DNA from: Myxococcaceae bacterium
Lineage (GTDB): Bacteria > Myxococcota > Myxococcia > Myxococcales > Myxococcaceae
Length of the DNA: 46,390 nucleotides
Assembly (NCBI GenBank): GCA_019694595.1
Contig: JAIBBQ010000028.1
Location: forward strand, 1 to 46,390
Direction of reading: 5' to 3'
Part shown: piece after piece, positions 393-28,547 of the stretch
How positions within the stretch are numbered: position 1 is the stretch's first letter
Layout of the letters: each line of letters starts with the position of its first letter
The notes under the pieces: model-generated
What the model was told of the DNA's origin: nothing
What the model saw: only the letters and a program-made list of their open reading frames with translations
Databases searched by the model: none
Translations under genes and position numbers: made by a program

Positions 393-459
393 GAAACGAC
401 TCCTCGAAGGCTTTCCGATCGGCGCCCCCGAAGGAGTCGGGGCGACGCGGCCAGCGCTT

Positions 460-1104: not shown

Positions 1105-1288
1105 GGTGGCGGGAAACTACTCGTGTTTGCGCGCGCTCGAAAGCGCATTGCGCGTGGGCCGCCGGAGGGTCAACGGCGCGGCAGCCACGGCCCGGGGTGA
1201 GCCTCGCCGCCAGGCGTGCTCCCCGGCCGACGCACCTGCCCCTTCCCGCGCGAGCCCCCTGGCCCGCGCGGCACGGCTCGGGCCTCGG

Positions 1289-3178: not shown

Positions 3179-3268
3179 GTGAAGCCTCCTTGGGGCAAGA
3201 GCGCGTAACTGGTCAGAACCGCACTGAGCCCATCGGGTTGGACACCGCCCGGCAGGCTGGGTTCCCGG

Positions 3269-3633: not shown

Positions 3634-5166
3634 CTAGAGCGGCTCGTCGGGCTCGTCGCCCTTCTTCTTGGGCGCCGGCGCGGGGGCGGCCGCCGGAGCT
3701 GGGGCCGCGGCGGGCTTGGCCGCGTCCTTCTTCTTCGGGGGCGGCTGGCTTTCTTCCGCCGAGACCGGGGGAGTGTCCTTGTCCTTGTCCTTGCCGGCCG
3801 GCGCAGGCGCCTTCGCCGCGTCCTTCCCGCCGCCCTTGGCCGAGTCGAGCTGCTTCTTGAGCTCCTCTTCCTTCTTGGCCTTCTCCTCGGCGGCGGCGGC
3901 GTCCTCGGCCTTCTTGGCCTCGGCTTCCATCTTCGCGGCTTCCTCGGCGGCCTTCTTGTCTTCCTCGCGCTTGGCGAGCACGGCTTCCTGGTCCTTGATC
4001 GCGTCGTAGACCGGGTGGTTCGCCGCGAGCGAACCGTCGCCGCCCTTCGCCTGAATGTACTGGCGGTAGTACTCGAGCGCCTTCTCCGGCATGCCCTTCG
4101 CCGCGAGGATGAAGCCGCGGTTCAGGTACAGCTCCGGCATGTCGCTCCTGGCCTTCTGCGCGAGGTCGTACGTGGCCATCGCCTTGTCGTACTCACCCAT
4201 GCCCTTCTGGGCGACGCCCAGGTTGAGCAGCGCCTCGGCGTTGTTGCCGTTGGCCTGGAGGATCTTGCGCAGGCTCTCTTCCGCGCTGCCGTAGTCCTCC
4301 TGCGCCAGCGCCATGCGCGCGAGCTCGTAGTGCGCCGGCAGGAAGTCGGGCCGCGCCTCGATCGCCTTGCGGAACTGCGCGCGCGCGCGCACCGGGTCCT
4401 TCTCCAGCATGGCGATCTGCCCCAGGAGGTAGAGGACCTCGGGGTCGCCGTCGTCGAGCTTCATCGCCTTGAGCGCCACCAGCTTGGCGAGCGAGAGCTG
4501 CTTCTGCTCGAAGTAGGCGCTCATCAGCACCTTGTAGGCCTGCAAGGTGTGCGGGTCGCGGAACAGCGCGTCCTTCGCCAGCTCGATCGCCTTGTCGAGC
4601 TCTCCGCGGCGGCGGTGGATCTCGGCCAGACGCGCCCGGCTCCCCGCGTCGTCGGGGTACTTGGCGAGGATCTGCTCGTAGATCTGCACCGCCTTGGCCT
4701 CGTCGCCGCCGTTCTGCGCGATCACCGCCAGGTTCTGCGCGGCCTGCACCAGCGACGGCTTCCGGTCGAGCGCTTCCTTGTAATAGGCGACCGCGTCCTT
4801 GACCTTGCCCTGGCGCTCGGCGAGCACGCCCAGGTTGTAGGTCGCTTCCGCGAGCCGCGAATCGGCGTCGGCCGCGGCGGCGAACTTCTTCTCCAGGCCC
4901 GCGTAGTCGTACGTCTTCGCCTTCTTCTGCGCCTCGTACGCCTTGGTGGCGTCTTCGAAGGCGAGCTTGGCCTTGGTGTTGATCTGCGGCTGCCCGTCAC
5001 CCGCGGGGGCGGCAGCGCTCGAGCTGCTGCTGCGCTGCTGCGAACCGCGCTGCGGCTGGGCGGTCTCGGTGCGCTCCGCGCTCTGGGTGGTGGCGCAGCC
5101 CAGCGCGAAGAGCGACGCGCCGGCGAAGATCGAGAACCACCGGCTGCTGGTCGAGGTGCGGTTCAT
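3634..5166 (-). CDS. gltE: TPR lipoprotein GltE (AglT-like)
   Basis: A 510-residue lipoprotein. The lipobox cysteine is residue 24 (LFALGC) if translation starts at 5166. An in-frame ATG at 5190 would add eight residues and lie inside gltD, whereas 5166 has GAGAGG upstream and gives a sensible signal peptide, so I chose 5166. Residues about 90-390 are a run of tetratricopeptide repeats. A Lys/Glu/Ala-rich helical stretch (about 395-445) and a Pro/Ala/Lys tail follow. GltE (AglT) in M. xanthus is an outer-membrane-associated TPR lipoprotein needed for adventurous gliding. The gene begins 10 bases after gltD stops. Its last residues, GDEPDEPL, closely match the end of GltD. Confidence 0.88.
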   Translation of the reverse strand: MNRTSTSSRWFSIFAGASLFALGCATTQSAERTETAQPQRGSQQRSSSSSAAAPAGDGQPQINTKAKLAFEDATKAYEAQKKAKTYDYAGLEKKFAAAADADSRLAEATYNLGVLAERQGKVKDAVAYYKEALDRKPSLVQAAQNLAVIAQNGGDEAKAVQIYEQILAKYPDDAGSRARLAEIHRRRGELDKAIELAKDALFRDPHTLQAYKVLMSAYFEQKQLSLAKLVALKAMKLDDGDPEVLYLLGQIAMLEKDPVRARAQFRKAIEARPDFLPAHYELARMALAQEDYGSAEESLRKILQANGNNAEALLNLGVAQKGMGEYDKAMATYDLAQKARSDMPELYLNRGFILAAKGMPEKALEYYRQYIQAKGGDGSLAANHPVYDAIKDQEAVLAKREEDKKAAEEAAKMEAEAKKAEDAAAAEEKAKKEEELKKQLDSAKGGGKDAAKAPAPAGKDKDKDTPPVSAEESQPPPKKKDAAKPAAAPAPAAAPAPAPKKKGDEPDEPL

Positions 5167-5176
5167 GGAGTGCCTC

Positions 5177-8100
5177 TCAGAGCGGCTCATCGGGCTCCTC
5201 TTCCTTCTTCTTCTTCTTCTGCGCGGTCTGCGGCGCGGGGGCGCTCTTGGCGGCGGGCTGCTCGTCGAGATCCTTGGGCGGCTTGTCCTTCAGGTCCGAC
5301 GTGTCGCGCGCCACTTCCTTGCTCGCCGCCTTGATGTCGCCGGTGGCGATGGCGCCCGCGCTCGACGTGGTGGGCACCGCCTGCACCGAGAGGAGCAGGT
5401 CCTCGCCGATCGACGTCAGCTTGCCTTCGGGCATCTTGAGCTCGGCGACGTCCTCTCCCATCTTGGGGAAGCGCTCCGGCCGGTACTTGGTGCGCAGGTT
5501 CTCGAGCGCCTGGGTGGTGCAGGCGTTGAACACGTCGAGTTCCTGGCTCTTCTGTACCGCTGCGGTGAACGCCTCGGCCGCCTTCTCGCGCACCGGGGGA
5601 AGCTGCTGCTCGAGCTGACCCTTCACCTCGAACTCCAGGTCGTCGGTCATGCCCTTGGGGCGCGGCGGGTGAATGAGCGTCTCGGCGAAGTTGTCGTACG
5701 CCATGCCGATGCGGGTCAGCGCGCAGATCGCCGGGTCGGCCGACTTGAAGGTGACCGTCTGGGTGTACATCTTCTGCACGCCCTCGAGCGCCTTCGCCTT
5801 GTCGGTGATCGAGTTCTTGAACTCGCCGACGTTGGCCAGCTTCGACCACTTGAGCCGCATCTTCTCGTACTTCTTCCAGTCGTCTTCGTTGTGGAGGAAG
5901 TGCGCGCGGGCCACCGCGTCGAGCGCGGTGATCTCGAGCGCGCCCTTGGTCTTCTTGGGCAGCTTCTCGTGGTAGTCGAGGATGCGGTCGAAGATCTTCT
6001 TCGCCGCGCCCTTGTTCTTGATCTTGTCTTCGTAGATGCCGGCGATGCGGCCTTCGGCGGTCAGGAGCTTGTTGGGGTCCTTGCCATACTTCTTCTCGTA
6101 CTCTTCGAGCTGCTTCTGCGCCTTGCCGTACGCGCCGTTGCGCTCGTGCAGGTCGACGATCGACAGGAACACCGCTTCCGCGTCCTTCGACTCGCCCCAC
6201 AGCTCGAGGTAGTGCTCGCGGTTGCGCAGCGCGGCCTTGTACTGCCCGAGCCCGTCGCGGAACACGCCGGCGTTGAAGAGCGCGATCTGCGCCTTCGACT
6301 CTTCCCAGACCTGGCCGTCTTTCTTGTCGTCGTCGGCCGGGGCCGCGGCGGCCTTGGCGCCCTTCTTCCCCGCCTTGGCCGGCGCCTTCGCCGCCTTCTT
6401 GCCGCCGCCGTTGAGGCTCTTCTCGTACTGCGCCGCGTACGCCTCGTAGCCCGCGGCCGCGTTCTCGAAGTCGGCCACCGCGTCGTAGCCTTCGGCGAGC
6501 GCGAACAGCGTCTGGGGCACGAACGAGCTCTTGGGGTACCCCTGGATGATGCGCTTGCGCGTCTCGATCGCCTTGTCGAGCTGGCGCGCGTTGAAATAGT
6601 CGATGCTGGCGTTGAAGAGCGCCTTGTCGGCGATCTCCGACTTGGGGAACTCGGTGACGAACGCGATGTACGCGTCGGCTGCCTTGCCGAAGTCCTTCTT
6701 CGCCTCGAGCTGGTTCACGAGCTTGAACGCCGACTGCTCGATGAGCTTGGCCAGGTCCTCGCGGAACTTGCCGGTGGCGAGCTTGTCCTCGCCGTAGAAC
6801 TTGCGCGCCCACTCGTTGACCTTCGCCCAATCGCCCTGGAGGTTGTACGAGTCGAGCACCAGGTTGGCCGCGATCTCACCCGCGCGGTCGCCGTTCTCGA
6901 ACTTGTAGTCGGGGTGCTTGAGCGCGATCTCCGCGAAGCGCGGCACCGCCTGCTCGAGGTCGTTGTAGTCGTAGTAGATCTTCGCGGCCTTGTAGGCGAT
7001 CTCGACCTTCTTATCGCCCGCCGGCACGTACTTGAGGTAGCGCTCGCACGCCTCGAGCAGCGACTTCTTCTCGGCCGGAATGGTCAGCTTCTTGTTGGGG
7101 TCGGTGACCGCTTCCGGCTTGAGCTTGCCGGAGCTCTCGAGCCCCTTCACCACCTGGTCGTTGGCGAGGATCGCGTTGTACGCGGCGTTCACCATCCACT
7201 TGCACAGGGGGCCCTTGGGCTTGCCGTTCTCGTCCTTCTCCGGCGGCGCCTCGCACTTGTCCTTCCGCTTGATGTCCGTCTCGAGCACGATCGTGTACTG
7301 CTCGGCGGCCTTGTCGTACTTGTTGAGGTTGTCGTTGAGGAGCTCGGCCCAGAAGAAGCGCAGGTCGTACGCCTTGTTGTTGTCGGGGAAGAGCGTCAGG
7401 TAGTCGGCGTAGACCTCGTTGGCGAAGCCGAAGGTCTCGTCGTCGCGGGTCTTCTTGGCCTCGTTGTGCCAGTTGACCGCGAGGTTCGAGATGGTGCGCT
7501 CCGAGAGCTCCTTCGCCTCCTCGAGCACGGTGACGTCCTTGGGGTCCATCGGCTTCTTCGCCGCGCCCTTCACGTCGTCCATGATCTTCACCAGGCGGCG
7601 CACCTGCTGCACCGTCATGCGCTTGTTCCCGGCGCGCATCACGCAGTCGATGATCTTGCCCTGGAAGCCCGGCGCCTCGGGCGCGGTGGGGCGTTCCTTG
7701 ATCAGCATGTCGAAGGCGAGCGCTGCTTCCTTGTCCTTGCCGTCTTCGTAATAGAGGCCGGCGAGGCCCTTCATCATGTTGCGCAGGTCTTCGGGCTTGG
7801 TGCTGGGGAGCTTGGCGAACCGCTCCTTGCCTTCGTTCGGGTTGCCGGTGATGAGCCGCGCGTAGCTGCGCACGTAGTCGGTGCGCGCTTCGCGAACCAG
7901 CCCCTGCCGACCGCCCTTCGCACCCTTCTTGCCTTCGACTTCCTCGGTGCCCTGGATCTCGGCGTACAGCATCACCGCCTTGTACTGCTCCATCGCCTTC
8001 TCGTAGTCGCCCAGGTTGAAGTAGCACCAACCCTGCTTGTAGAGCGCGTAGCCGTAGACCGCGTTCTCGGGGAACTTGGCGGCTTCCTTGTACGACGCGA

Positions 8101-8830
8101 GCGCCTTCTCGATCTGGTCGCGCTTTCCCTTGGAGCCGTTGAAGTAGTACTCGCCGAACGCCAGGTGCGAGTCGGGCAGGTACTTCGACTTGGGGTACTT
8201 CTCGATGAGCCGCTTGTATGCGGTGAGCGAGCGGCGCTCGTCGCCCATCTCCATCAGGTTCTGGCCGAGGAAGTAGAGGACTTCGTCGGTGCGGGGGAAG
8301 TCTTTGTACTTCTGGACGATCTCCGTGTACTGCTCGACGGCCAGGCCCGCGGGCTCCTTCGCCGCCTCGACGAGCTTGTCCTTCTCCGCCTTGATGCGCT
8401 CCATCGCCGCCTTGTCGCCGGCGTTCATCGCGCGGATGTAGTCGTCGTCTTTCCGGTTGGCCTCGAACAGCTGGTAGCGCGATTCCTCGAAGTAGAGCTC
8501 GCCCAGGCGGAAGAGCAGCTTGGGCATCTCTTCCTTGTCCTTGCCGCCGTTGAGCTGGATGATCCGCTTCAGATCCTCGATCTGCTCGCGGCGCTTCGAC
8601 GCCACCTGGCCTTCGACGCCGAGGCGGAACTGGTCGTACTGCAGCGCCGGCGCCGCATCGGTCTTCTCCTTCTTGCGCGTCACGTCGCCGGCCAGCGACT
8701 TGTCCGGCGCGATGCTCGTCGACTTCTTGCCGAGCTCCGCGTCCTTGGCGGTCTTCTTCTCTCCCGCCTTGTCCTGCCCGAACGCGACCGCGGATGCGGT
8801 CAGCGCCAACACGATCAAGATTCGCCGCAT
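5177..8830 (-). CDS. gltD: Large periplasmic TPR protein GltD (AgmU-like)
   Basis: A 1217-residue exported protein starting with a signal peptide (MRRILIVLALTASAVAFGQ), then many TPR-like helical hairpins from about residue 60 to 1100, including YEKAMEQYKA and LDKAIETRKRII. A Lys/Ala-rich insert lies near residue 810. The C-terminus is low-complexity and Lys/Glu-rich, ending EEEPDEPL. Size and position as first gene of the run match GltD (AgmU), the large periplasmic TPR protein seen in moving helical tracks in M. xanthus. The reading frame stays open far upstream, but the ATG at 8830 has a GAGAG site and creates the signal peptide. The gene is preceded by 125 bases holding an 11-bp palindrome. 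No promoter is obvious. Confidence 0.9.
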   Translation of the reverse strand: MRRILIVLALTASAVAFGQDKAGEKKTAKDAELGKKSTSIAPDKSLAGDVTRKKEKTDAAPALQYDQFRLGVEGQVASKRREQIEDLKRIIQLNGGKDKEEMPKLLFRLGELYFEESRYQLFEANRKDDDYIRAMNAGDKAAMERIKAEKDKLVEAAKEPAGLAVEQYTEIVQKYKDFPRTDEVLYFLGQNLMEMGDERRSLTAYKRLIEKYPKSKYLPDSHLAFGEYYFNGSKGKRDQIEKALASYKEAAKFPENAVYGYALYKQGWCYFNLGDYEKAMEQYKAVMLYAEIQGTEEVEGKKGAKGGRQGLVREARTDYVRSYARLITGNPNEGKERFAKLPSTKPEDLRNMMKGLAGLYYEDGKDKEAALAFDMLIKERPTAPEAPGFQGKIIDCVMRAGNKRMTVQQVRRLVKIMDDVKGAAKKPMDPKDVTVLEEAKELSERTISNLAVNWHNEAKKTRDDETFGFANEVYADYLTLFPDNNKAYDLRFFWAELLNDNLNKYDKAAEQYTIVLETDIKRKDKCEAPPEKDENGKPKGPLCKWMVNAAYNAILANDQVVKGLESSGKLKPEAVTDPNKKLTIPAEKKSLLEACERYLKYVPAGDKKVEIAYKAAKIYYDYNDLEQAVPRFAEIALKHPDYKFENGDRAGEIAANLVLDSYNLQGDWAKVNEWARKFYGEDKLATGKFREDLAKLIEQSAFKLVNQLEAKKDFGKAADAYIAFVTEFPKSEIADKALFNASIDYFNARQLDKAIETRKRIIQGYPKSSFVPQTLFALAEGYDAVADFENAAAGYEAYAAQYEKSLNGGGKKAAKAPAKAGKKGAKAAAAPADDDKKDGQVWEESKAQIALFNAGVFRDGLGQYKAALRNREHYLELWGESKDAEAVFLSIVDLHERNGAYGKAQKQLEEYEKKYGKDPNKLLTAEGRIAGIYEDKIKNKGAAKKIFDRILDYHEKLPKKTKGALEITALDAVARAHFLHNEDDWKKYEKMRLKWSKLANVGEFKNSITDKAKALEGVQKMYTQTVTFKSADPAICALTRIGMAYDNFAETLIHPPRPKGMTDDLEFEVKGQLEQQLPPVREKAAEAFTAAVQKSQELDVFNACTTQALENLRTKYRPERFPKMGEDVAELKMPEGKLTSIGEDLLLSVQAVPTTSSAGAIATGDIKAASKEVARDTSDLKDKPPKDLDEQPAAKSAPAPQTAQKKKKKEEEPDEPL

Positions 8831-8903
8831 GATCTCTCGTTCCGCCTGTGGGCGGCCGCAGCACCTGCTCTCAAATGCTGTCGGCAACCGGGCAAGACTC
8901 CTC

Positions 8904-8914
8904 GGGAAATTCCC
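8904..8914. promoter_or_regulatory. 11-bp palindrome upstream of gltD
   Basis: GGGAAATTCCC is a perfect palindrome around a central A, in the 125-base gap between the UDG stop and the gltD start and about 75 bases before the gltD ATG. It could be an operator for the gliding operon. There is no second copy nearby and no clear -35/-10 pair, so support is weak. Confidence 0.2.
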
Positions 8915-8955
8915 TTTGCTGCGGAGCGGATTTTGGCCCTGCGGTTCCTCAGGCG

Positions 8956-9615
8956 TCAAGCAGCGCGTAGCGCGCGCGCAAGAATGTCGTCGAACATCGC
9001 AGCCGTCAGGCGGCCGGTCTGCGTGTTCTGCTGGCTCACGTGGTAGCAGCCCAGCACCGTGGGGAACCCCGCGCGGGCCACCTCGGTTCCATGCCCGAAT
9101 TTGGGCCGTGGCCGCGGGTGGTCGAGCGCCTCGAGCAGCTGGTCGAAGGCCAGCGCCCCCAGCGCCAGCAAGACCCGGGGCTTGAGCAGCTGGAGCTCCC
9201 GGTGAAAGAACGGCCGGCAGGCCTTCACTTCGTCGGGCGAAGGCCAGTTGTCCGGGGGCGCGCAGCGCACCGGCGCGAGGATGTAGGCGCCCTTGAGCTT
9301 GAGCCCGTCGTCGCGCGAGGTGCTGTGGGGCTGGTTCGCGAGAGCGAAGCGGTGGAGCCCCGCGTAGAGGAAGTCGCCCGAGCGGTCGCCGGTGAACATG
9401 CGCCCGGTGCGGTTGGCGCCGTGGGCGGCCGGGGCCAGCCCGACGATCACCAGCTTCGCCCGGGGGTCGCCGAAGCCCGGCACCGGCCGGCCCCAGTAGG
9501 TCCAGTCTCGGTAGGCGCGCCGCTTTTCCCGCGCCACCTGCTCGCGCCACGCGACCAGCCTCGGGCACGCGCGGCACCCGGCGATCTCCTTCGACAGCGC
9601 CTCGAGCCTGGTCAT
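8956..9615 (-). CDS. Uracil-DNA glycosylase, family 5 (UDGb type), Fe-S
   Basis: A 219-residue DNA-repair enzyme removing uracil and other deaminated bases. It has an N-terminal CxxC (residues 14 and 17) and two further cysteines in the PVRCAPPDNW and KACRPFF segments, fitting the four-cysteine [4Fe-4S] site of family 4/5 enzymes. The active-site motif GLAPAAHGANRTGRMFTGD has the family-5 form, lacking the acidic residue of family 4. The second motif, YHVSQQNTQTGRL, is present near the C-terminus. The ATG at 9615 overlaps the stop of the upstream gene (ATGA), so it is translationally coupled to an envelope-protein operon. It is the last gene of that run, upstream of gltD. Confidence 0.9.
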   Translation of the reverse strand: MTRLEALSKEIAGCRACPRLVAWREQVAREKRRAYRDWTYWGRPVPGFGDPRAKLVIVGLAPAAHGANRTGRMFTGDRSGDFLYAGLHRFALANQPHSTSRDDGLKLKGAYILAPVRCAPPDNWPSPDEVKACRPFFHRELQLLKPRVLLALGALAFDQLLEALDHPRPRPKFGHGTEVARAGFPTVLGCYHVSQQNTQTGRLTAAMFDDILARALRAA

Positions 9616-10394
9616 CGCCGCCCCACCCCGAGCGCCTCGAGCAGCTTGCGCGTGCGCACGCTGCGCGCCGGGTCGGCGCCCAGGCGGACCCGCAGCTCGA
9701 GCGACGGGTCCTTCGCCAGGAGCGCGGTCACCACCCGGGGCTCCACCTCGGGCGGCACCTCGAGGACCGAGCCCGCGGCGCACGGAAAGGCGGCCAGCGC
9801 GTCCCCCGCCGGAACCGGCAGCACCAGCTCGAGCGCCTGCCCCGGCTGCTGGGTGGTGCAGGCGGCCGGCCACGGCTCGGTCGGCGCGCTCACCACGAAG
9901 CGCCGCCCGGGGAGCTGGCGGAAGGCCCCCCACTGCAGCAGGTCGACCTGCGGCGGCGGGGCCCACGACAGCCAGGTGGGCCGCCAGCGCGAGAGCTGCG
10001 CCGCGTCGGCGCCGTCGAGCGGCCCGCGGAAATTGAGCGCCACCGGGCGGCTGGTCGCCAGCGCGGGTCCGACCCGACCCGGCGCGAAGTCGAACCACAG
10101 CCCTGCGCGAGGCACCCGCGAGAGCTGCTGCAGGTCGGCCGGCTTGAGCGGCGCGCGCAGCTGCACCCACGCCCGCTCGAAGCGTTGCAGGGTGTCGATC
10201 ACCGATTCCTTGAGCGTGTTGCCGTCGGTGGTGAGCCAGAGCGTGACCCCGGGCCGCGCCAGGAGCCGCAGGTGATCGGAATCCAGCGCCTCGGCGGCCA
10301 CCACGTGCAGCCGCAGGACCCCGGGCGGCAGCTGCTCGAGCGCGGTGCCGGCGTCGGCCGCGGCGAGCAACAGGCCCAGCCCCAGCGCGATCAC
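9612..10394 (-). CDS. Unknown secreted protein, 260 aa
   Basis: I do not recognise this protein. It starts at a GTG (10394) that overlaps the stop of the permease gene as GTGA, and its own stop overlaps the UDG start as ATGA. The first 20 residues are hydrophobic (IALGLGLLLAAADAG), suggesting a signal peptide. The mature part has repeated strand/helix-like units (for instance GVTLWLTTDG, FERAWVQLRAPL, RAGLWFDFAP) and many Leu, Pro and Trp, with two cysteines in the second half. This could be an alpha/beta fold, but no catalytic motif is visible. Codon use is like its neighbours. Its place between a membrane permease and a DNA glycosylase gives no clear hint of function. Confidence 0.7.
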   Translation of the reverse strand: MIALGLGLLLAAADAGTALEQLPPGVLRLHVVAAEALDSDHLRLLARPGVTLWLTTDGNTLKESVIDTLQRFERAWVQLRAPLKPADLQQLSRVPRAGLWFDFAPGRVGPALATSRPVALNFRGPLDGADAAQLSRWRPTWLSWAPPPQVDLLQWGAFRQLPGRRFVVSAPTEPWPAACTTQQPGQALELVLPVPAGDALAAFPCAAGSVLEVPPEVEPRVVTALLAKDPSLELRVRLGADPARSVRTRKLLEALGVGRR

Positions 10395-11569
10395 GGCCCG
10401 GGCGCCAGGTAGAACGGCGTGCGCCGGTAGCGCATCAGCACCACCTTGAGCGCCACCTTGAGCGTCGCGGTCGCCGGCACCGCGAGCAGCACCCCCGCGA
10501 ACCCGAAGAGCTCGGCGAAGGCGAGCACCGCGATGATCACCGCCACCGGCGGCAGCCCGACCTTGGTGCCCACCACCCGGGGGGTGATGAAGAGCCCTTC
10601 GAGCAGCTGCGCCAGCAGGAACGTGCCCGCCACCACCGCGAACTGCCACGGCCCCTGCCAGCTCAGCAGCACGGAGATCACCGCCAGCGACGCGCCGACG
10701 CCGGTGCCCAGGTACGGCACCATGTTGCCGAAGCCGGCGATGAGCCCGATGACGATCGCCATGTCGATGCGCGCGATCGACAAGCCCGCGCTGTAGATGA
10801 CCGAGAGGATCGCCCCCACCGTGAGCTGCCCGCGCACGAAGGCCGACAGCACGTCGTCGACCTCGCCGAAGCGCCGCTCGAGCAACGGCAGCGCGCGCCG
10901 CGGCAGGAGGTTGCGCAGCCGTTCCACCAGCACCGGGTAGTCGTCGAGGAAGAAGAAGGCGAGCACCGGCACCACCAGGAGCCCCAGCACCGACGCCACC
11001 ACGCTCGCGGTGTTGCTGGCGAAGCTCGCCACCAGCTTGGCCGCCGCGGGGCCCGCTTCCTTGAGCAGGTCCGAGGCCTCGTCGCTCAGCTGGCTCGCCC
11101 GCTCGCGAATCAGGGTGGGCACCGAGATGCCGAAGGTGCGTTCCACCCACGGCACCAGCTGCACGCCGGCGGCCCTGATGAAGTCGGGCAGCTTGGCGGC
11201 CTCGTCGCGGAAGACGGGAATCAGGTACAGCCCGAAGCCGGTGAGCGCCACCACCAGCCCGGCGAACACCAGCGCGGTCGCCCGGGTGCGCGGCATGCGC
11301 CGCTTCACCAGCGCGGTCACCACCGGGTTGAGCGCGTAGGCCAGCGCGAGCGCCAGCATCACCGGCACCGACACGCCGCGCACCAGCGACAGCAGGAGAA
11401 ACAGCGCGCCGATGCCGCCCACCACGCCGGCCGCCCAGCCGAGGTCGATCTTGCGCGCCAGCGCCTCGGGCAGCCCCGAGTTCTCGTCGGCGGCCACGGG
11501 CCCCATGGGCACCGTCGTCGCCGTGGTGGGTACCACCGCCTCCGTCGGGGCCGAGGCCCCCGGGCTCAC
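10391..11569 (-). CDS. AI-2E family transporter (UPF0118/PerM-like permease)
   Basis: A 392-residue polytopic inner-membrane protein. After a short Thr/Pro-rich cytoplasmic head, there are two to three helices near residues 45-125, a long soluble stretch (about 135-230), and a helical C-terminal half with the family features LAFFFLDDYP, GFGNMVPYLGTG and ITPRVVGTKVGLPP. These identify the AI-2E/PerM exporter family. The family name comes from E. coli TqsA; other members move Na+/H+ or have unknown substrates, so quorum signalling should not be assumed. The GTG at 11569 overlaps the stop of the FecR gene as GTGA. The reading frame is open far upstream, but that region overlaps the FecR gene. 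Confidence 0.88.
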   Translation of the reverse strand: MSPGASAPTEAVVPTTATTVPMGPVAADENSGLPEALARKIDLGWAAGVVGGIGALFLLLSLVRGVSVPVMLALALAYALNPVVTALVKRRMPRTRATALVFAGLVVALTGFGLYLIPVFRDEAAKLPDFIRAAGVQLVPWVERTFGISVPTLIRERASQLSDEASDLLKEAGPAAAKLVASFASNTASVVASVLGLLVVPVLAFFFLDDYPVLVERLRNLLPRRALPLLERRFGEVDDVLSAFVRGQLTVGAILSVIYSAGLSIARIDMAIVIGLIAGFGNMVPYLGTGVGASLAVISVLLSWQGPWQFAVVAGTFLLAQLLEGLFITPRVVGTKVGLPPVAVIIAVLAFAELFGFAGVLLAVPATATLKVALKVVLMRYRRTPFYLAPGP

Positions 11570-12294
11570 GGGCCCTGCTTGGCCAGCCACTTGGAGAACG
11601 CGTCGTTCTTGATCTTCTCGTCGAGCTCCGCGGCCTCGAAGAGGTCGGCGCCCACCGCCTGCGCCTCGCCGGCCTGGAGCTGCACGAAGATCTTCTCCCA
11701 CTCGTCGGCGCTGACTTCCTGCGGGCCCTTCACCTCGACGTGCCCGCCCTTGGGCGCGGCGCCCTTGAGCGTCTTGGCGATCTTCGCCGAAGGGTTCACG
11801 CGCACCACGCCCTCGACCACGCGAATGACGGTGGCCGGCTTGCGCGCCTTGGTCTTGGCGCCCTTCACCAGGGTGTCGGCGTCGATGCGGAAGATGGTGC
11901 CGCGCACGCCTGCGACCGCGCGCTCGGTCTTCACCTCGTACTTGGCGCCGCCGAGCAGCTTCTTCACGTGGGTCCACAGCGCGCCGGACTTGAGCGTGCC
12001 CAGGAAGCTCTTGCAGTCCTGGCCGTCGAACTGCGCGTCGTCGATGTAGAGCTCGGCCTTCTCCGACAGGGCGATCTGGCTGCCGTCGTTGAGCTCGAGC
12101 TTCAGGTTGCCGCCCGGGCCGACCTTGAGCGTGTCCTTGAGCTCGACTTCCGTGCCGACCGCGAGGTCGACCGGGGCGCCGCCTTCGGGGGCGCGGGTGG
12201 CCTTGCCTTCGAGCACGGCGATCTTGCCGATCGACGCCAGGGCGAGCTGCGGCATCAGCAGGGTCAGCGCCATCACCAGGGTTGCACGCTTCAC
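11566..12294 (-). CDS. Exported FecR-domain protein
   Basis: A 242-residue exported protein. The signal peptide (VKRATLVMALTLLMPQLALAS) is followed by a FecR domain: a start resembling GKIAVLEGKATR, then VGTEVELKDTLKVGPGG and LELNDGSQIALSEKAELYI, and later VAGVRGTIFRI. FecR domains occur in ferric-citrate anti-sigma regulators and in many stand-alone periplasmic proteins. There is no membrane anti-sigma segment and no sigma factor nearby, so a periplasmic scaffold or binding role is more likely than iron regulation. The GTG at 12294 has an AAGGAG site and overlaps the preceding stop as GTGA. Two cysteines are present, too few for heme or metal clusters. Confidence 0.82.
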   Translation of the reverse strand: MKRATLVMALTLLMPQLALASIGKIAVLEGKATRAPEGGAPVDLAVGTEVELKDTLKVGPGGNLKLELNDGSQIALSEKAELYIDDAQFDGQDCKSFLGTLKSGALWTHVKKLLGGAKYEVKTERAVAGVRGTIFRIDADTLVKGAKTKARKPATVIRVVEGVVRVNPSAKIAKTLKGAAPKGGHVEVKGPQEVSADEWEKIFVQLQAGEAQAVGADLFEAAELDEKIKNDAFSKWLAKQGP

Positions 12295-12635
12295 GGTGTC
12301 TCCTTCGGTTGTTCCGGCGCCCGCGTCAGCTCGGCCGACAGCACGGCCCGGGCACCACCGCTTTCTATCCACGTTTCCCACGGCGCGAAGCCAGGTTTCT
12401 TCACCTCGACGTGGCGCCAGCCCGCCCCCCACACCGGCAGGCGCTCGCCCACCGCGCTGCACTGCCCCACCGGCACGCCGTCGATCGACACTTCCGCGTC
12501 CGGAGGCTGGCACCGCAGCACCACCGCCCCACCCCGCGCCTTCGACTGCGCGAGGCCTTCGCCTGCCTGGTCGAACAGCTGCGGCGCGGGGCGCGCGGCA
12601 CAGGCGCACCCCAGCACCACCGGCCAGACCTTCAC
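12291..12635 (-). CDS. Small PEGA-domain envelope protein, probable lipoprotein
   Basis: A 114-residue protein with a PEGA-like domain: CQPPDAEVSIDGVPVGQC and VEVKKPGFAPWETWI show the PEGA pattern of a small beta domain common in bacterial surface proteins. The GTG at 12635 overlaps the preceding stop as GTGA. The beginning, MKVWPVVLGCACAA, has a lipobox-like LGC at residue 10, but the hydrophobic part is unusually short for a lipoprotein signal, so anchoring is uncertain. It is sandwiched between a FlgT-like protein and a FecR protein in a tightly coupled chain. PEGA domains often sit on proteins contacting the wall or outer membrane, which agrees with an envelope assembly role. Confidence 0.7.
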   Translation of the reverse strand: MKVWPVVLGCACAARPAPQLFDQAGEGLAQSKARGGAVVLRCQPPDAEVSIDGVPVGQCSAVGERLPVWGAGWRHVEVKKPGFAPWETWIESGGARAVLSAELTRAPEQPKETP

Positions 12636-13822
12636 TTGCCGAGCGAGAGCTCGACCTTGTTGTTCATCAGCCCGGTGACGTTGATCTTCTTCTTCTTCAC
12701 CGACTTGGTCTTGAGCACCGAGCCCAGCTCCTTGGCGGTGCCGGCGTAGGCGAGCGTGTACTCGACCTTGCCGCCCGAGAAGTCGCCGGTGGTCACCTTG
12801 GTCACCTTGTCCACCGCGCCGAACGCCTTCTCGAGCTGCTCGACCATCTCCAGGTCGGGAACGCCGGTCACCGCCACGGTGACCTCGTTGCCGTTGACGT
12901 CGGCGTTGCGCAGGTACTCGATGACCGGCTTGCGCAGCTCGCTCACGATGCGCGGGGCGTCGGCGGCGCAGAATTCCTGCGCGACTTCCTTGTAGCCCAC
13001 GACCTTCTTGCTCATCGCCATCATGCGCTTCTGGTCGATCTCGCCCGCGACCTTGGCGAGCTGGGTGCCGGTGCGGGTCTCGAACATCGCGAGGTCGTAG
13101 CTGCCGGTCACGAAGAAGAGGATCTGCTTGCCCTTGTCGTCGAGCTCCGGGAGCGTGCCCGCGCCCGGCGGCACGTAGCGGAAGCTCGCGGTGCCGTAGA
13201 CGATGTAGTCGACGTCGCTGCGCTTGGTGATCTCCTTGGCGTCCACCGCGCCGTTCGAGACGCCCGCGCTGATCTTGATGGGGCCGTCGCCGGTGCTCTT
13301 CTCGTCCTTGATGGTCCAGCCGTCGCGCTTGAAGGCGTCGGTGATGACGGTGGGCAGGATCTCGCTCTTGGTGCTCACGCCCTTGGAGTCGATCGACTGT
13401 TCCTGCACGGCGATCAGCACCTTCTTGAACCCGAGCTTGCCGATGAGCATCTGCACCGCGGCGACTTCCTTCTCGAGGTCGGAAGCGACGATCTCCGCCT
13501 TCACCTTGACGGTGACGACCTTCTTCTCGACCTTCTTGTCGAGCACGTCGTACTTCTTCACGAAGCCCAGCGCCTTGGTGCTGACCTGGTCCATCAGCAG
13601 GCTGCTGTTGCGGGTGACCGTGTCGGCCTGGACGATGACGCCCGCGGCCTGCTCCACCGCGGTGCGCAGCGCCTGGGCCTTGGCTTCCTCGAAGGCCTTC
13701 TCTTCCGTGCCGCTGCCGACCGCGGCCTGGCCGGTGGCTTCCTGGGTGACGATGTTGGCTTCCGCGGCGAAGGCCGCGCTGGCCAGCACCACCGAGACGA
13801 CGCCGAGCTTGAGTGCGTTCAT
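12632..13822 (-). CDS. FlgT-like envelope protein
   Basis: A 396-residue exported protein (signal peptide ending AAFAAEA). Residues about 25-110 look like the FlgT N-terminal domain, with a TEEKAFEEAKAQALRTAVEQ helix and then GVIVQADTVTRNSSLLMDQV and a strand pair. Residues about 130-270 resemble the TolB-N-like middle domain (KVLIAVQEQS, DVDYIVYGTASF). The C-terminal part has two small alpha/beta units and is Lys-rich. FlgT of Vibrio forms the periplasmic H ring of the flagellar motor; here there are no flagellar genes. It follows an LPP20/FlgP-like gene after 23 bases. I see no strong ribosome site before the ATG at 13822. The family call is by eye and needs a profile search. Confidence 0.65.
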   Translation of the reverse strand: MNALKLGVVSVVLASAAFAAEANIVTQEATGQAAVGSGTEEKAFEEAKAQALRTAVEQAAGVIVQADTVTRNSSLLMDQVSTKALGFVKKYDVLDKKVEKKVVTVKVKAEIVASDLEKEVAAVQMLIGKLGFKKVLIAVQEQSIDSKGVSTKSEILPTVITDAFKRDGWTIKDEKSTGDGPIKISAGVSNGAVDAKEITKRSDVDYIVYGTASFRYVPPGAGTLPELDDKGKQILFFVTGSYDLAMFETRTGTQLAKVAGEIDQKRMMAMSKKVVGYKEVAQEFCAADAPRIVSELRKPVIEYLRNADVNGNEVTVAVTGVPDLEMVEQLEKAFGAVDKVTKVTTGDFSGGKVEYTLAYAGTAKELGSVLKTKSVKKKKINVTGLMNNKVELSLGK

Positions 13823-13845
13823 GGGTCTTGAGGGTTCCGGTGGTT

Positions 13846-14745
13846 TCAGTTGAGGACGATGACGACCTTGCCCTGGGACAGGTAGCTGGCGTCGGACTCG
13901 ATGAGCTTCTTCACGTCGGCCTCGGCGAGCGCGAGGTCGACCCCGTTCGCCTTCGACGCCTTGAGCACCAGCGGCTTGTCGCCCGCCTTCATCGACTTCT
14001 TCGCTTCCTCGAGCGACTGCACGTAAGACGCGACGCCGCTCGACTTGCGGGCGTCGGCCGACAGCGAGTCGACCGAGTAGACCGGCTTGCCGGCCGCGTC
14101 GAGCAGCCGGGGCGCCAGCGCAGGGGTCACCTTGAGGCCGCGGGCGTCGATCACCAGGCCCGTGGCGTGGTCGCCTTCGGGGGCCTTGGCCACCGCGGCA
14201 GCCTTCGGATCGGCCGCCTTGGGGTCAGCCGCCTTCGGGTCGGCAGCCTTGGGGTCGGCCGCCTTCGGGTCCTTGCCTTCCACCTTGGCCGGGGCCGCCG
14301 CGATGAGCTGCTGCGGCGTGGGGTCGGGGTCGACCACCTCGGTCAGGAGCGCCAGCGGGGCCTCGATGTCGACTTCGACGCCGCCGTCGGCGTAGTAACG
14401 CTTGCCGGCCACGCGGTAGCCGCGCAGCAGGCCTTCGACGCGCGCCTTGACCTTGTCGTCGGCCATGGCGTCGCTCATCTTCTTGGTGCCGTCGATCTGG
14501 ATGCCCTGCACCTGCGCGAGCAGGTTGCGCATCGCATCGACCAGCGCCGCGCGCTCCGCGCCGAGGCGGGCCTTCGCGGGGTTGGTTTCCTTGAGATCGG
14601 GAGCCCCGGCGCCGGTCGCCCGGACCAGCTGCCCGCCCCAGTTCACGCCCGGCGCCTGCTTGGCGTCACCGGTGAACTTCTTCTCGTCCGCCGCCTGGGT
14701 GACCAGGGGCAGCGCAACTGCACACAACCAGACGAGTCTTCGCAC
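13846..14745 (-). CDS. LPP20/FlgP-like exported protein with DPKAA repeat
   Basis: A 299-residue exported protein (MRRLVWLCAVALPLVTQA signal). The N-terminal domain (about 40-135) has the LPP20 pattern: KARLGAERAALVDAMRNLL, VQGIQIDG, VKARVEGLLRGYRV, DGGVEVDIEAPL. A linker made of five DPKAA repeats follows at about 159-183. The C-terminal domain begins TGLVIDARGLKVTPALAP and ends QGKVVIVLN, a domain often paired with LPP20 in deltaproteobacteria. FlgP of Vibrio and Campylobacter is an LPP20-type outer-membrane ring protein. There is no lipobox cysteine here. The GTG at 14745 has GGAGGG seven bases upstream. A good promoter lies 56-84 bases upstream, making this the first gene of the seven-gene operon. 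Confidence 0.7.
   Translation of the reverse strand: MRRLVWLCAVALPLVTQAADEKKFTGDAKQAPGVNWGGQLVRATGAGAPDLKETNPAKARLGAERAALVDAMRNLLAQVQGIQIDGTKKMSDAMADDKVKARVEGLLRGYRVAGKRYYADGGVEVDIEAPLALLTEVVDPDPTPQQLIAAAPAKVEGKDPKAADPKAADPKAADPKAADPKAAAVAKAPEGDHATGLVIDARGLKVTPALAPRLLDAAGKPVYSVDSLSADARKSSGVASYVQSLEEAKKSMKAGDKPLVLKASKANGVDLALAEADVKKLIESDASYLSQGKVVIVLN
14197..14271 (-). repeat. Five 15-bp tandem repeats encoding DPKAA
   Basis: Five in-frame 15-bp units encode the Asp-Pro-Lys-Ala-Ala linker of the FlgP-like protein. The Pro codon alternates CCG, CCC, CCG, CCC, CCG between units. This suggests duplication of a 30-bp two-unit block rather than single-unit slippage. Confidence 0.85.
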
Positions 14746-14896: not shown

Positions 14897-15217
14897 TCAG
14901 GTGCCCTGCTGCACGAACGACTCGATCATGCGCTTGTGGCGCTCGGTGAGGAGCGTGAACTTGATGCCCGAGCCTTCTTCCTCGAGCTCGCACCACTCAC
15001 GGACGATCTCGCCTTCGGCGTAGATGACCTCTTCGCTCCCCGGGAGCTGGAACTGCAGGCCGACCCGCTTGCCCGACAGCTCGGGCTCGATGAGGTGCGA
15101 GAGGCCGACGCCTTCGCGCGAGATGTCGGACGTCCGCGCCATGTACGGCACGCCCGCCACGTACTTGTTCAGGTAGATGTCCAGGGGCACTCGGCCGTGC
15201 TTGCGCTTCTCGCTCAT
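14897..15217 (-). CDS. PilZ-domain protein (c-di-GMP receptor)
   Basis: A 106-residue single-domain PilZ protein. Both cyclic-di-GMP motifs are intact: RxxxR in KRKHGRVPL near the N-terminus (residues about 4-8) and DxSxxG in DISREGVGL about 30 residues later. It should therefore bind c-di-GMP and relay it to a partner, in myxobacteria usually motility, polysaccharide or pilus control. The ATG at 15217 has a GGAGG site; the frame extends 17 codons further upstream, but without a ribosome site and into the predicted leader. It is a single gene with its own promoter and a leader hairpin. It lies between the peptidase gene and the FlgP-like operon on the same strand. Confidence 0.88.
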   Translation of the reverse strand: MSEKRKHGRVPLDIYLNKYVAGVPYMARTSDISREGVGLSHLIEPELSGKRVGLQFQLPGSEEVIYAEGEIVREWCELEEEGSGIKFTLLTERHKRMIESFVQQGT

Positions 15218-15430: not shown

Positions 15431-17464
15431 TCAGTTCGACGCGGGTCTGCCGAGCGCGGCGGTGGTGGCGCGCAGCAGCGGGCCCGCACTCACCGGCTCA
15501 CCCGCGGCGTTCTTCATCCACAGGTCGGGGGCCACCGAGCCGAAGCGCGCCATGCGCTCGAACTCCGGCCCGAGCTTGCCGGCCTTGCGCACCTGCTCCT
15601 CGATCTGGAACGCGATCAGGTGCCCGAGCGGGTAATTGAAGAGGTACAGCGGGTAGCTGATCATGTGCGAGTAGATGCCGAGGATCGCGGTGTCTTTCCC
15701 GCCGAGCACCGGGGCGTAGTACTGGTTCCACACCTGGCGAGAGAGCGCGACGGTCGCCTCGCGCAGCTCCTTGGGGGTCGCCTTGGGGTGCTCGTACATC
15801 CAGTGCCAGACGCCCACGTCGACCAGGGCGACGCCGGCGATCTCGAACGTCATCCAGAAGTCGTTGAGCACCCGCAGCCGCTCGGTCTCGGCGTCGGGCT
15901 TGGCCTGGCCGAGCAGCTCGAGGTCCTTCGCCTGGAACACGAAGGCCAGCGCCTCGGTGAACGCGGTGTTGGGCACGCCGGACAGCAGCGTGTGATCGAC
16001 GTCGTAGAGGCTGAACACCTGCTCCACGTTGTGGCCGAGCTCGTGGACCGCGATGTTGTAGCCCTTGTAGTCCATGCCGTCCTTCCCCACGCGGGTGCGC
16101 AGGTGGGGAAAGTCACCGCGGCGGGCCGACTGCAGCGCGTGCCCCTGCCCGCGCGCGGGGTCGACCTTGATGCGGTCCGCGAGGTACTGCGCCCGGTCGG
16201 CCGCGAAGCCGAGCTCCTTGAGAATCCGGGGAATGTCCTTCGCGAAGGCGTCGGCGGTGGGGTAGCGCTTGCGGGTCAACGCATCGAGCTTCTCCTCGCT
16301 GATCGCGCCGCGCGCCACGAAGCCGTTGAACCACAGGTCCTGCGGCTCGAGCGGCCGGCCGAGCTTCTTCTGGATCTCCGCGCCCACCTGCCCCACCAGC
16401 GGGCTCTTGAGCACCTCTTCCAGCAGGCCCTTCACCCGGGCCTCGGGCATCTCGGCGCCCAGCGCAAAGGCCCGCTCGATGGCGGTCGGCGTGGCCGGTG
16501 CGTACGGGTCGGCGAGCCTGGAGGCGGCGAAGTTCGCCCACAGCTTCTGGTAGCGCACGTCGGCCTCGGCCTTGGCGTCGGTGGTCACCGGCCGCTTGGG
16601 CGCGTCGGTCTCGAGCTCGGCTTCCGGCGTGGCGGTCACCGCGTTGGTGAACGGGTTCCAGTCCACGCGCGGGTTGTCGATCACCGCCGCGGGAATGGTC
16701 TGGGTGACGATGCGCTCCATCACCTTGACGATGGTGCGCTGCTTGGCGAGCCCGTCGGCGTCGGCGTAGTTCGCCTTGAGCTCGTCGCGCAGGTTCCAGT
16801 GGCTGATGAGCCGCTTGCCCTTCGGGAACAGGCGGGCGCCCTTCTCGTCGACCAGGTGGTGCATCCACACGTTGTAGTCGGCGACGTAGAGGTCGCCGGC
16901 CGAGGTGGCCGCCGAGATGCCCGCCTGGATGTCGCCGGGAATGCGGCGCGCGAAGCGACCGGTGAGGCGCGCCTCGGCCCACTGGCGCCGGGTCCACCCT
17001 GCGCCCTCGGCGGTGCGCTGGTCGAGCGTGGACACCGGGAAGTTGAGCAGCGCGGCGAAGGCGGCCTTGGTACCGAAGAGGTCCTCGGTCACCCGCGCCG
17101 ACGGATCGTAGGCCGCGAAGAGCGGGTCGACCTTGAGCTGGGGCCCGAGGTCGAGCTCGCTCGCCTTGCGGCACTCGCGGCCGATCTCCAGCATGTGCCC
17201 GTCGATCTGCTCGAGGTTCGCCTCGTAGCGGTCGAAGAGCTTGTCGAGCTCGGCCTGCTCGGAGACGAAGTGCTCCTTCACGAAGGCCGCGAGGTCGCCG
17301 TCTTCGGCCTTCCACAGGGACTGCACCTGCTTGAGCCCCTGCTCCACGCGCGCTCGGGCGGCCTCGCCGTGTTGCTTCACGAGCTCGGCGGACAGCGCCT
17401 TCAGGTCGACGGCGGGCGGCTTCTTCGCAGGGGCGGCCATCAGCACCACGCAGAGCAGGAGCAT
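15431..17464 (-). CDS. Secreted zinc metallopeptidase (HELGH, M3/M2-like gluzincin)
   Basis: A 677-residue exported protein with a short signal peptide (MLLLCVVLMAAPA) and a mostly helical body. The zinc site is VHELGHNVEQ, about two-thirds along, and FTEALAF supplies the likely third ligand Glu, 25 residues after the second His. HExxH plus a distant Glu in a helical protein is the gluzincin plan, as in families M2 and M3. The exact family is not clear to me. An ACE-like peptidase is encoded 0.4 kb upstream beyond a cold-shock gene, and the two may be distant relatives. The start at 17464 has only a weak AAGG site. Probable role: cleaving peptides in the periplasm or outside the cell. Confidence 0.75.
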   Translation of the reverse strand: MLLLCVVLMAAPAKKPPAVDLKALSAELVKQHGEAARARVEQGLKQVQSLWKAEDGDLAAFVKEHFVSEQAELDKLFDRYEANLEQIDGHMLEIGRECRKASELDLGPQLKVDPLFAAYDPSARVTEDLFGTKAAFAALLNFPVSTLDQRTAEGAGWTRRQWAEARLTGRFARRIPGDIQAGISAATSAGDLYVADYNVWMHHLVDEKGARLFPKGKRLISHWNLRDELKANYADADGLAKQRTIVKVMERIVTQTIPAAVIDNPRVDWNPFTNAVTATPEAELETDAPKRPVTTDAKAEADVRYQKLWANFAASRLADPYAPATPTAIERAFALGAEMPEARVKGLLEEVLKSPLVGQVGAEIQKKLGRPLEPQDLWFNGFVARGAISEEKLDALTRKRYPTADAFAKDIPRILKELGFAADRAQYLADRIKVDPARGQGHALQSARRGDFPHLRTRVGKDGMDYKGYNIAVHELGHNVEQVFSLYDVDHTLLSGVPNTAFTEALAFVFQAKDLELLGQAKPDAETERLRVLNDFWMTFEIAGVALVDVGVWHWMYEHPKATPKELREATVALSRQVWNQYYAPVLGGKDTAILGIYSHMISYPLYLFNYPLGHLIAFQIEEQVRKAGKLGPEFERMARFGSVAPDLWMKNAAGEPVSAGPLLRATTAALGRPASN

Positions 17465-17905: not shown

Positions 17906-19735
17906 TCACCAACCGCACTTCGCGCCGGCGTTCTGCTTCTTCAGGTACGCGCGCAGCGGCTCGAAGTACTCGAGGATCGGGGTGGCATCCATCTGCTTGG
18001 AGCCGGTCATCGCGTAGAGCGCGTCGGGCCACGGCTTGCTCGCGCCCATCGCCAGCATGGCCTTGAGCTTCGCGCCCGCCTCGCGGTTCCCGTAGATCGA
18101 GCAGGTGTGCAGCGGGCCCTGGTGACCGGCCGCCTGGCACATCGCCTTGTGGAACTGGAACTGGAGGATGCGCGCGAGGAAGTAGCGCATGTACGGCACG
18201 TTCGCGGGGATGTGGTACTTCGCGCCCGGGTCGAAGAACTCCTCGCCGCGGGTGCTCGGCGCCGCGACGCCCTGGTACTTCTGGCGCAGCGCCCACCAGT
18301 GCGCGTTGTACTGATCGGGCTTCACCTTCCCCGAGAACACGTCCCACCGCCACTGGTCCATCATGCGGCCGAAGGGCAGGAACGCGATCTTCTCCAGCGC
18401 GTCCTTCATCTGCAGGTTGATGAGGCCGCGGTCGTCCTTGGGCACTTCCTTGAGCAGGTTCAGCTTCTTCAGGTACTCGGGGGTGATCGACAGCGTGAGC
18501 GCGTCGCCGATCGCCTCGTGGAAGCCGTCGTTCGCCCCCTGCTGGAAGAGCACCGGCATCTTCCAGTAGTTCATGAAGTAGTAGTCGTGCCCGAGCTCGT
18601 GGTGCACGGTGACGAGGTCTTCCTCGTCGATCTTGATGCACATCTTGATGCGCAGGTCGTTGCTGAAGGTCACGTCCCACGCGCTGGCGTGGCAGACCAC
18701 GTCGCGGTCCTGCGGCTTCTTGAACTGCGAGCGTTCCCAGAAGGTGGCCGGCAGCGGGTCCATGCCCAGCGAGGTGAAGAAGCTCTCGCCGAGCTTCACC
18801 AGCTTCTTCTCGTCGTACTTCTGCTTCTGCAGCTCCTTGGTGACGTCGAGGTTGGTGACGCCCTTGTACGGCTCGACGAGCGGGTAGACGTTGCTCCATT
18901 CCTGGGCCCAGAGGTTGCCGAGCAGGTGCGCGGGAATCGGGCCGGTGTCGCTCACCTTGCCGGGGTACTTCTTCGCCAGCTGGGTGCGCACGTAGCAGTG
19001 CAGGTCGTCGTAGAGCGGCTTGAGCTGCTCGTAGAGGCGGTCGGTTTCCTTCTCGAAGGCCTCCGGCGCCATGTCGTAGCCGCTGCGCCACAGGTCGCCC
19101 ATGTCCTTGGCGCCGATCTCCTTGGCGCCTTCGTTCGACAGCTGCACCAGGCGCTCGTAGAGCGGGCGCATGTCCTTGGAGATGGTGTGCCAGCCTTCCC
19201 AGGCCTCGAGCTGCTCGTCGTAGCTGCCGCCCTTGGCGAGCACCGCCGACAGCTGCTGGATGTCGCGGCACTTCTTGGGGTCGGGCTCCTTCCCCGGCTC
19301 GACGCCCTTGCAGAACTTGCCCTTGCCGTACATGCCTTCGAGCTTGGCGGCGAGGTTGGCCAGCTCGGTACGCTTGTCGGCGTCGCTCGGCGCAGGCAGC
19401 GACTGCGAGACGCGCAGCAGATACAGCATGCGCTCGGTGTCGGGGTCGAGCTTGAGCCCCTTGAAGCGGAACGAGTCCTTGATGGCCTGGGTGACGTACG
19501 CCATCACGTCGTCGTTCATCGCCGCCGCGTTCCGCTCGGTGTCGTCGGTGATGTAGGTCGACTTGATCCACTCCGCGGTCGAGCTGCGGACCCAGAGCTT
19601 CGCCAGGTCCTTGTTCACCTTGGCGACGAAGGCCTTGGCCTCTTCCACGGTCGGCGCGGGAGCGGCGGGAGCTGCGGCGGGCGCCGCCGCAGGAGCGGAG
19701 ACGAGTACGGCCACCACGGAAAGGAGCGCGTGCAT
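17906..19735 (-). CDS. Peptidyl-dipeptidase A, ACE-like (family M2)
   Basis: A 609-residue secreted zinc dipeptidyl carboxypeptidase. An Ala/Pro-rich stretch follows the signal peptide (MHALLSVVAVLVSAPAAA). The catalytic motif VHHELGHDYYF and the third zinc ligand in FHEAIGD, 23 residues after the second His, are exactly as in family M2 (angiotensin-converting enzyme). Other ACE landmarks are the WAQEWSNVYPLVEPY region, the CHASAWD segment and the C-terminal PYMRYFLARILQFQFHKAMC block. Bacterial ACE-like enzymes remove C-terminal dipeptides and probably serve nutrient peptide breakdown in a predator. It starts 10 bases after the kinase gene ends, so it is probably the last gene of the accA-hisC-cmk transcript. 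No ribosome site is clear. Confidence 0.93.
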   Translation of the reverse strand: MHALLSVVAVLVSAPAAAPAAAPAAPAPTVEEAKAFVAKVNKDLAKLWVRSSTAEWIKSTYITDDTERNAAAMNDDVMAYVTQAIKDSFRFKGLKLDPDTERMLYLLRVSQSLPAPSDADKRTELANLAAKLEGMYGKGKFCKGVEPGKEPDPKKCRDIQQLSAVLAKGGSYDEQLEAWEGWHTISKDMRPLYERLVQLSNEGAKEIGAKDMGDLWRSGYDMAPEAFEKETDRLYEQLKPLYDDLHCYVRTQLAKKYPGKVSDTGPIPAHLLGNLWAQEWSNVYPLVEPYKGVTNLDVTKELQKQKYDEKKLVKLGESFFTSLGMDPLPATFWERSQFKKPQDRDVVCHASAWDVTFSNDLRIKMCIKIDEEDLVTVHHELGHDYYFMNYWKMPVLFQQGANDGFHEAIGDALTLSITPEYLKKLNLLKEVPKDDRGLINLQMKDALEKIAFLPFGRMMDQWRWDVFSGKVKPDQYNAHWWALRQKYQGVAAPSTRGEEFFDPGAKYHIPANVPYMRYFLARILQFQFHKAMCQAAGHQGPLHTCSIYGNREAGAKLKAMLAMGASKPWPDALYAMTGSKQMDATPILEYFEPLRAYLKKQNAGAKCGW

Positions 19736-28509: not shown

Positions 28510-28547
28510 GGTGCTTCGCCTTTTGTCGGAGTCGGCCCGACTGCAAA

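Follow-up and report, generated by a model that had tools for sequence, protein, structure and literature searches.

Why should a FlgP-like and a FlgT-like protein, relatives of flagellar ring components, stand at the head of a gene chain that runs up to a gliding cluster? We address this question for a 46,390-nt stretch of a Myxococcaceae bacterium (GenBank assembly GCA_019694595.1, contig JAIBBQ010000028.1), hereafter the window, which is contig 51 of a 7.3-Mb draft genome that is 99% complete and whose closest named relatives are Myxococcaceae and Archangiaceae metagenome-assembled genomes. The locus was compared with a family sample of 60 relatives, the window's own genome included, with a phylum sample of 156 genomes at least 90% complete, and with at least 79 loci gathered with a profile of the FlgP-like protein; statements about loci hold among the matches listed. 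We give roughly even odds (about 0.5) to the reading that the chain specifies an old envelope complex, situated near the outer membrane and dependent on neither flagella nor gliding. A literature search of open-licence PMC text found no paper on this operon.

Two secreted proteins related to FlgP and FlgT

The FlgP-like protein comprises an LPP20/SHS2-type domain (residues ~33–138), a low-confidence repeat linker and a second domain (~195–299) of the type of domain 2 (D2) of Treponema pallidum Tp0624 (PDB 5jir). Pfam detected LPP20 only below its cut-off (E 0.0012), and phmmer against the PDB returned FlgP-type chains at 1.2e-5 to 2.3e-3. A profile of 51 relatives matched Tp0624 best, across both domains (7.6e-18), and then FlgP-type chains at 8.3e-16 to 5.6e-8, among them the lipoprotein chain 9hmf_C of the Campylobacter flagellar scaffold (8.3e-16) and the FlgP of 8z5n (5e-10). 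The predicted structure (pLDDT 83.4) superimposes on Tp0624 with Z 20.9 over 225 residues and on Helicobacter Lpp20 with Z 10.2, and the kinship with FlgP proposed in an earlier note on this DNA is borne out by these comparisons. The protein aligns to D1–D2 of Tp0624 and ends after D2, whereas Tp0624 continues into a third, OmpA-like domain (PMC5104382); it also differs in being the first gene of an operon that includes a FlgT-like gene. PMC5104382 places the D1–D2 pair in about 50 proteins of diverse bacteria and describes D2 as a then-new fold and the function of Tp0624 as unknown, and the available text of that paper does not use the word FlgP. The SHS2-type domain is common to Campylobacter and Vibrio FlgP and to Lpp20, but the protein studied here is encoded away from flagellar genes, has the extra D2, appears to be a non-lipoprotein (its N-terminus, read by eye, has a signal peptide and no lipobox Cys) and lacks the ring hairpin in its monomer model. 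Ring formation in the SHS2 fold has been tied to an insert between the helix and the second strand (PMC12222027); the insert region is present and aligns nearly gap-free to the 9hmf chain, yet it is modelled as a helix (97–107) in the monomer. The interdomain linker consists of PKAAD-type repeat units (window 14190–14275, minus strand) and differs in length among relatives.

The FlgT-like protein is laid out as an FlgT_N domain (28–112), a middle domain of the TolB/PelC/CsgG type (~130–305) and a C-terminal domain (312–394). Pfam FlgT_N scored 29.6 bits (cut-off 28.8) and was found in 47 of 50 relatives, FlgO in three and CsgG in two, and none of the 50 matched FlgT_M or FlgT_C at E ≤0.001. 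A profile of these relatives matched the FlgP-type chain 9hmf_C (2.3e-4), FlgT (6.5e-4), LpoB (5.5e-3) and FlgO (7.5e-3), and each of the two profiles, FlgP-like and FlgT-like, also picks up the first domain of the other protein. For the model (pLDDT 84.8), the best Foldseek hits were to FlgT (1.2e-9 and 1.9e-9), and VIA-align likewise ranked FlgT first (Z 11.3), followed by HpaA, PelC (10.7) and TolB (10.6), which together uphold the proposed kinship with FlgT; the root-mean-square deviation of 18.6 over 218 residues implies that the two domains are set differently in the model and in FlgT. A hairpin is modelled at the insert position (63–71, 74–83). The N-terminal and middle domains follow the same order as in Vibrio FlgT (3w1e, 8z5n), whereas the C-terminal part is unaligned and the gene also occurs in genomes without flagella. 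The middle-domain fold is common to PelC, CsgG, GNA1162, LptE, TolB and LpoB, at sequence identities of ~6–16%. We make no claim of ring formation from the fold alone, because TolB and LpoB, which are not known to form rings, have it too. The Leptospira LipL46 family (NF033164) matches 46 of the 50 relatives at E ≤0.001 (best 2.3e-24), and in the relative from locus L090 residues 23–348 align to 34–359 of 413 (76.7 bits, cut-off 400), but the window protein itself has neither a LipL46 match nor a lipobox. LipL46 is described as an outer-membrane lipoprotein that is partly surface-exposed (PMC2698987), consistent with an outer-membrane-proximal scaffold; the available literature on LipL46 adhesion yields no mechanism for this operon.

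A gene pair conserved across phyla

The earlier note had held that the lack of a conserved neighbourhood in related genomes would speak against its proposal; the neighbourhood proved to be conserved. Within the phylum sample, the FlgP-like and FlgT-like genes are adjacent in all 74 genomes that have both, with a median gap of 35 bases and a largest gap of 601, a conservation that far exceeds chance. The underlying counts, 77 genomes for FlgT-like and 127 for FlgP-like, stand after removal of 10 of 87 FlgT-like rows (G073, G097, G099, G106–G109, G130, G158 and G163) as weak, partial or cross-matches, of which G163 and G158 may be real, and of one of 128 FlgP-like rows (G039); in seven genomes, FlgT-like matches at E 1e-3 to 1e-4 proved to be cross-matches to the FlgP-like open reading frame (ORF) and were discarded. 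Both proteins match one ORF in five genomes of a single family (G047, G051, G075, G076, G077), and translation of L029 (991–2649) and L040 gave a single protein in which FlgP domain 1 is followed by a FlgT-like protein without an inner signal peptide.

The genes around the pair vary by lineage. Myxococcaceae loci follow the order PilZ, FlgP-like, (FlgT-like), PEGA, (FecR), (AI-2E), (uracil-DNA glycosylase, UDG), where brackets mark variable members. In Desulfobacterota the Pfam-checked order is FlgP-like, TPR/SLH lipoprotein, FlgT-like, GNA1162, CsgG, PEGA, FecR, complete in at least seven records (L090, L091, L092, L094, L095, L099, L101), and PEGA and/or FecR recur with the pair in Desulfobacterota and other phyla among the records listed. 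The CsgG-family protein of L090 (4651–5619) additionally carries FlgT_C (30.0 bits, cut-off 27), a domain that is below cut-off in L095 and was not found in L099 or L101. Two Nitrospirota records (L096 at 6781–10795 and L100 at 1–3344) contain several tandem FlgP-like genes together with a TPR/SLH gene.

Mapped on a tree built from neighbouring genes, FlgT-like presence switches three times in Myxococcus and Corallococcus and FecR presence four times, mostly following the former; presence labels were set by hand, and five truncated loci (L045, L051, L080, L083, L107) were left out. The two genes tend to be lost together, in three losses. The same tree places L068, a record that bears the title Comamonas sp. 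KCTC 72670, within Myxococcus; it is probably a mislabelled or contaminated assembly.

Occurrence with and without flagella

The earlier note took its host to be non-flagellated, a label that we reject: the genome encodes FlgI (1.1e-126) on contig 360 together with FliG, FliF, FliE, FlgC, FlgG and FlgH, and flagellin (5.1e-41) on contig 85. Although the genome is a draft, these genes are unlikely to come from a foreign contig, since the flagellar contigs fit the window in G+C and tetranucleotide use (tetranucleotide r 0.97) and FlgI occurs in 12 other genomes of the family within the phylum sample; it was also found in sister genera.

Neither gene of the pair tracks the flagellum. Among the 60 relatives, 33 have the FlgT-like gene, 45 the FlgP-like gene and 18 FlgI, and FlgI is present in 35 of the 156 phylum genomes. 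In the phylum sample, 52 of the 77 FlgT-like-positive genomes and 100 of the 127 FlgP-like-positive genomes lack FlgI, and ten genomes have FlgI without the FlgT-like gene. FlgP-like presence has no tie to FlgI (p 0.47), and counted by genus there is no association for FlgT-like either, which occurs in 22 of 27 genera with FlgI and in 35 of 48 without it (p 0.57); viewed from the other side, FlgI occurs in 22 of 57 genera that have the FlgT-like gene and in 5 of the 18 that do not. FlgI is present in 12 of 26 genomes picked by locus from among the 79 or more loci, and absent from Pyxidicoccus fallax, Hyalangium versicolor, Corallococcus CA053C and M. xanthus AM003; the first three, all isolates, carry the set. 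Among the gammaproteobacteria checked in PMC6375700, full FlgO/P/T sets were found only with sodium-type motors; the available text of that paper does not bring up this family. That many bacteria keep the operon even without a flagellum points to a general role in the cell envelope.

A putative envelope scaffold and its alternatives

The reading that we favour starts from the observed gene order and coupling, the conservation across phyla, the fusion, the predicted folds and the independence of FlgI; from these we infer location, binding, scaffold role and rings. The FlgP-like and FlgT-like proteins would be secreted and act as one unit, binding each other through their two related SHS2-type domains, and would sit beneath the outer membrane, held by the PEGA lipoprotein, with the FecR protein as a putative partner of the FlgT-like protein. 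In the Desulfobacterota version of the unit, the TPR/SLH lipoprotein could serve as a peptidoglycan anchor alongside GNA1162 and the CsgG-family protein. The whole would be static and periplasmic, a scaffold that supports either the outer membrane or some surface structure. It may oligomerise as FlgP, FlgT, PelC and CsgG do, and ring formation is plausible.

Several points weigh against this proposal. By genome, FlgT-like is weakly associated with FlgI (25 of 35 FlgI genomes, Fisher p 0.004, uncorrected for kinship). Of the 127 genomes with the FlgP-like gene, 53 have no FlgT-like gene, which shows that neither strictly requires the other. FecR is retained without the FlgT-like gene in one Corallococcus locus (L077), and with three independent pairs the co-loss of these genes cannot reach significance. 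The permease and UDG of the chain have no role in a scaffold, the helix in the FlgP-like model stands where FlgP rings have a beta-hairpin, and the middle-domain fold shared with TolB and LpoB is no proof of a ring.

The main rival, which we consider unlikely, is a pathway for export or surface display: a small molecule or lipid would cross the inner membrane by way of the AI-2E permease and then be guided to the outer membrane by the FlgT-like protein, through its PelC/CsgG/LptE-type middle domain. Myxococcaceae loci and four distant records (L088, L089, L106, L109) have the permease in this chain, the modelled middle domain is near PelC, CsgG and LptE, and Desulfobacterota clusters include a CsgG-family protein; however, the permease is absent from many clusters (for example L090–L095), and Pfam recognised no beta-barrel or CsgG gene in the window chain.

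We regard as improbable a third reading, in which the two proteins of this flagellated lineage build an H-ring or basal disk that surrounds the LP-ring of the flagellum. The window genome has a basal body and flagellin, and a search of it found no second LPP20 match and no other FlgT_N match above cut-off; the modelled folds resemble FlgP and FlgT; and FlgI is present in 10 of the 11 genomes with gltD beside the operon. Set against this are the 52 of 77 carriers without FlgI and the 10 of 35 FlgI genomes without the FlgT-like gene, the absence of the pair's genes from the flagellar contigs of the draft, and the lack of FlgT_M and FlgT_C in the 50 relatives. There is a similarly small chance that the chain provides a regulator, akin to LpoB or TolB, that acts on peptidoglycan synthesis or on constriction of the outer membrane. 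The profile match to LpoB (0.0055), the TolB-like fold (Z 10.6), the SLH domain that the TPR lipoprotein carries in other phyla and the OmpA-like third domain of Tp0624 (PMC5104382) all lend some weight to this, but the fold behind these matches is widespread, Pfam gave no LpoB match for the window protein and no penicillin-binding-protein gene was seen near the chain in Pfam scans of the window.

Gene order and the gliding cluster

The genes lie where the earlier note put them, on the minus strand in the order PilZ, FlgP-like, FlgT-like, PEGA, FecR, AI-2E permease, secreted protein, UDG, gltD, gltE, gltG, cglE (Table 1). The coupled chain described in the earlier note holds: five junctions overlap by 4 bases (GTGA or ATGA), namely FlgT/PEGA, PEGA/FecR, FecR/AI-2E, AI-2E/9612 gene and 9612 gene/UDG, and 23 bases separate the FlgP-like and FlgT-like genes. 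Its PEGA, FecR and AI-2E assignments agree with Pfam; the FecR-domain protein also gave weak LipL45/Lsa33 matches far below cut-off, and the protein at 9612–10394, described there as an unknown secreted protein, had no match in Pfam or NCBIfam.

Table 1. Features of the operon and the adjoining gliding cluster (window coordinates).
Feature	Position	Strand	Basis
PilZ-domain protein	14897–15217	−	PF07238, 1.5e-11; kept upstream neighbour in Myxococcaceae loci (synteny)
FlgP-like secreted protein	13846–14745	−	phmmer, profile, model; signal peptide by eye
FlgT-like/LipL46-type secreted protein	12632–13822	−	FlgT_N Pfam, profile, model
PEGA-domain protein with lipobox-like VLGC	12291–12635	−	PF08308, 24.1 bits (cut-off 20.8); lipobox by eye
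FecR-domain secreted protein	11566–12294	−	PF04773, 2e-12
AI-2E family permease	10391–11569	−	PF01594, 1.6e-54
Secreted protein, coupled to AI-2E and UDG genes	9612–10394	−	4-base overlaps
UDG superfamily, final gene of coupled chain	8956–9615	−	PF03167, 6.1e-29
Sigma-70-like promoter match, between UDG and gltD	8930–8959	−	Consensus match; 1 found, 0.1 expected
GltD-type TPR protein, start of gliding cluster	5177–8830	−	Pfam search; GltD described in a table of PMC3169522
GltE	3634–5190	−	NF033758, 520.5 bits (cut-off 225)
GltG	1289–3178	−	NF033760, 907.5 bits (cut-off 650)
CglE gliding protein (GltH position)	460–1104	−	NF033755, 141.3 bits (cut-off 70)

Gliding genes do lie beside the chain, with GltE, GltG and CglE all above NCBIfam equivalog cut-offs, but the link to gliding that the earlier note drew from this does not hold in general. 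The UDG gene and gltD are 125 bases apart, and the region's sole promoter-like match falls at this boundary, so gltD probably begins its own predicted transcription unit. Of the 33 genomes with the FlgT-like gene, 11, the window's own included, have gltD no further than 12 kb from it; FlgI is present in 10 of these 11, a pattern that we read as one clade. G055, where the place of GltD was unusable, is counted as non-adjacent, and some contigs are too short to tell. The presence of GltD (59 of 60 relatives) says little, since TPR paralogues match as well. The M. xanthus locus holds the FlgP-like, PEGA, AI-2E and UDG genes together and lacks the FlgT-like gene and FecR, the former being absent from most Myxococcus, and the G1 cluster list in Table 1 of PMC3169522 names no FlgP- or FlgT-like gene. 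That the proteins are accessory parts of the Agl–Glt gliding machine is the least probable of the alternatives: here the operon immediately precedes gltD-E-G-cglE, with which it shares a strand, and it lies near gltD in ten other family genomes and mostly likewise in loci L046–L058, L075 and L086, but it is non-adjacent in 22 of the 33 positive genomes, has carriers in other phyla, and in M. xanthus goes without its FlgT-like gene. The link to the gliding genes appears to be a local coincidence in how the genes are arranged.

Elsewhere in the window, a Peptidase M2 gene (angiotensin-converting-enzyme family, E 2.6e-225; 17906–19735, minus strand) lies in a conserved neighbourhood that it shares with a gene at 15431–17464 for a 677-aa protein of no recognised family. 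A TonB-dependent receptor (38082–40802, minus strand) has its TonB_C domain at the N-terminus, before the plug, and an ORF at 26572–28626 (minus strand) contains two ArsA-type ATPase stretches.

Implications for flagellar rings and envelope proteins

It is conceivable that the operon is a living relative of the envelope complex that supplied FlgP and FlgT to the H-rings and basal disks of flagella. We offer this only tentatively: it would be a flagellum-free, ring-like outer-membrane scaffold found across several phyla, whose separate pieces (FlgT_N, the TolB-type middle domain, and FlgT_C on the CsgG-family protein of L090) would have been joined in flagellar FlgT. PMC12222027 describes the basal disk as comparatively ancient and FlgP as coming from a broad family, and presents its work as a foundation for learning the origins of the motor's new proteins. 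An operon with FlgP-type and FlgT-type proteins that occurs both with and without flagella offers a concrete non-flagellar comparison for that purpose. It also links three poorly known proteins, Tp0624, LipL46 and Lpp20, to a single system open to study in harmless soil bacteria, and it puts a possible non-flagellar relative of the flagellar H-ring and basal disk within reach of testing.

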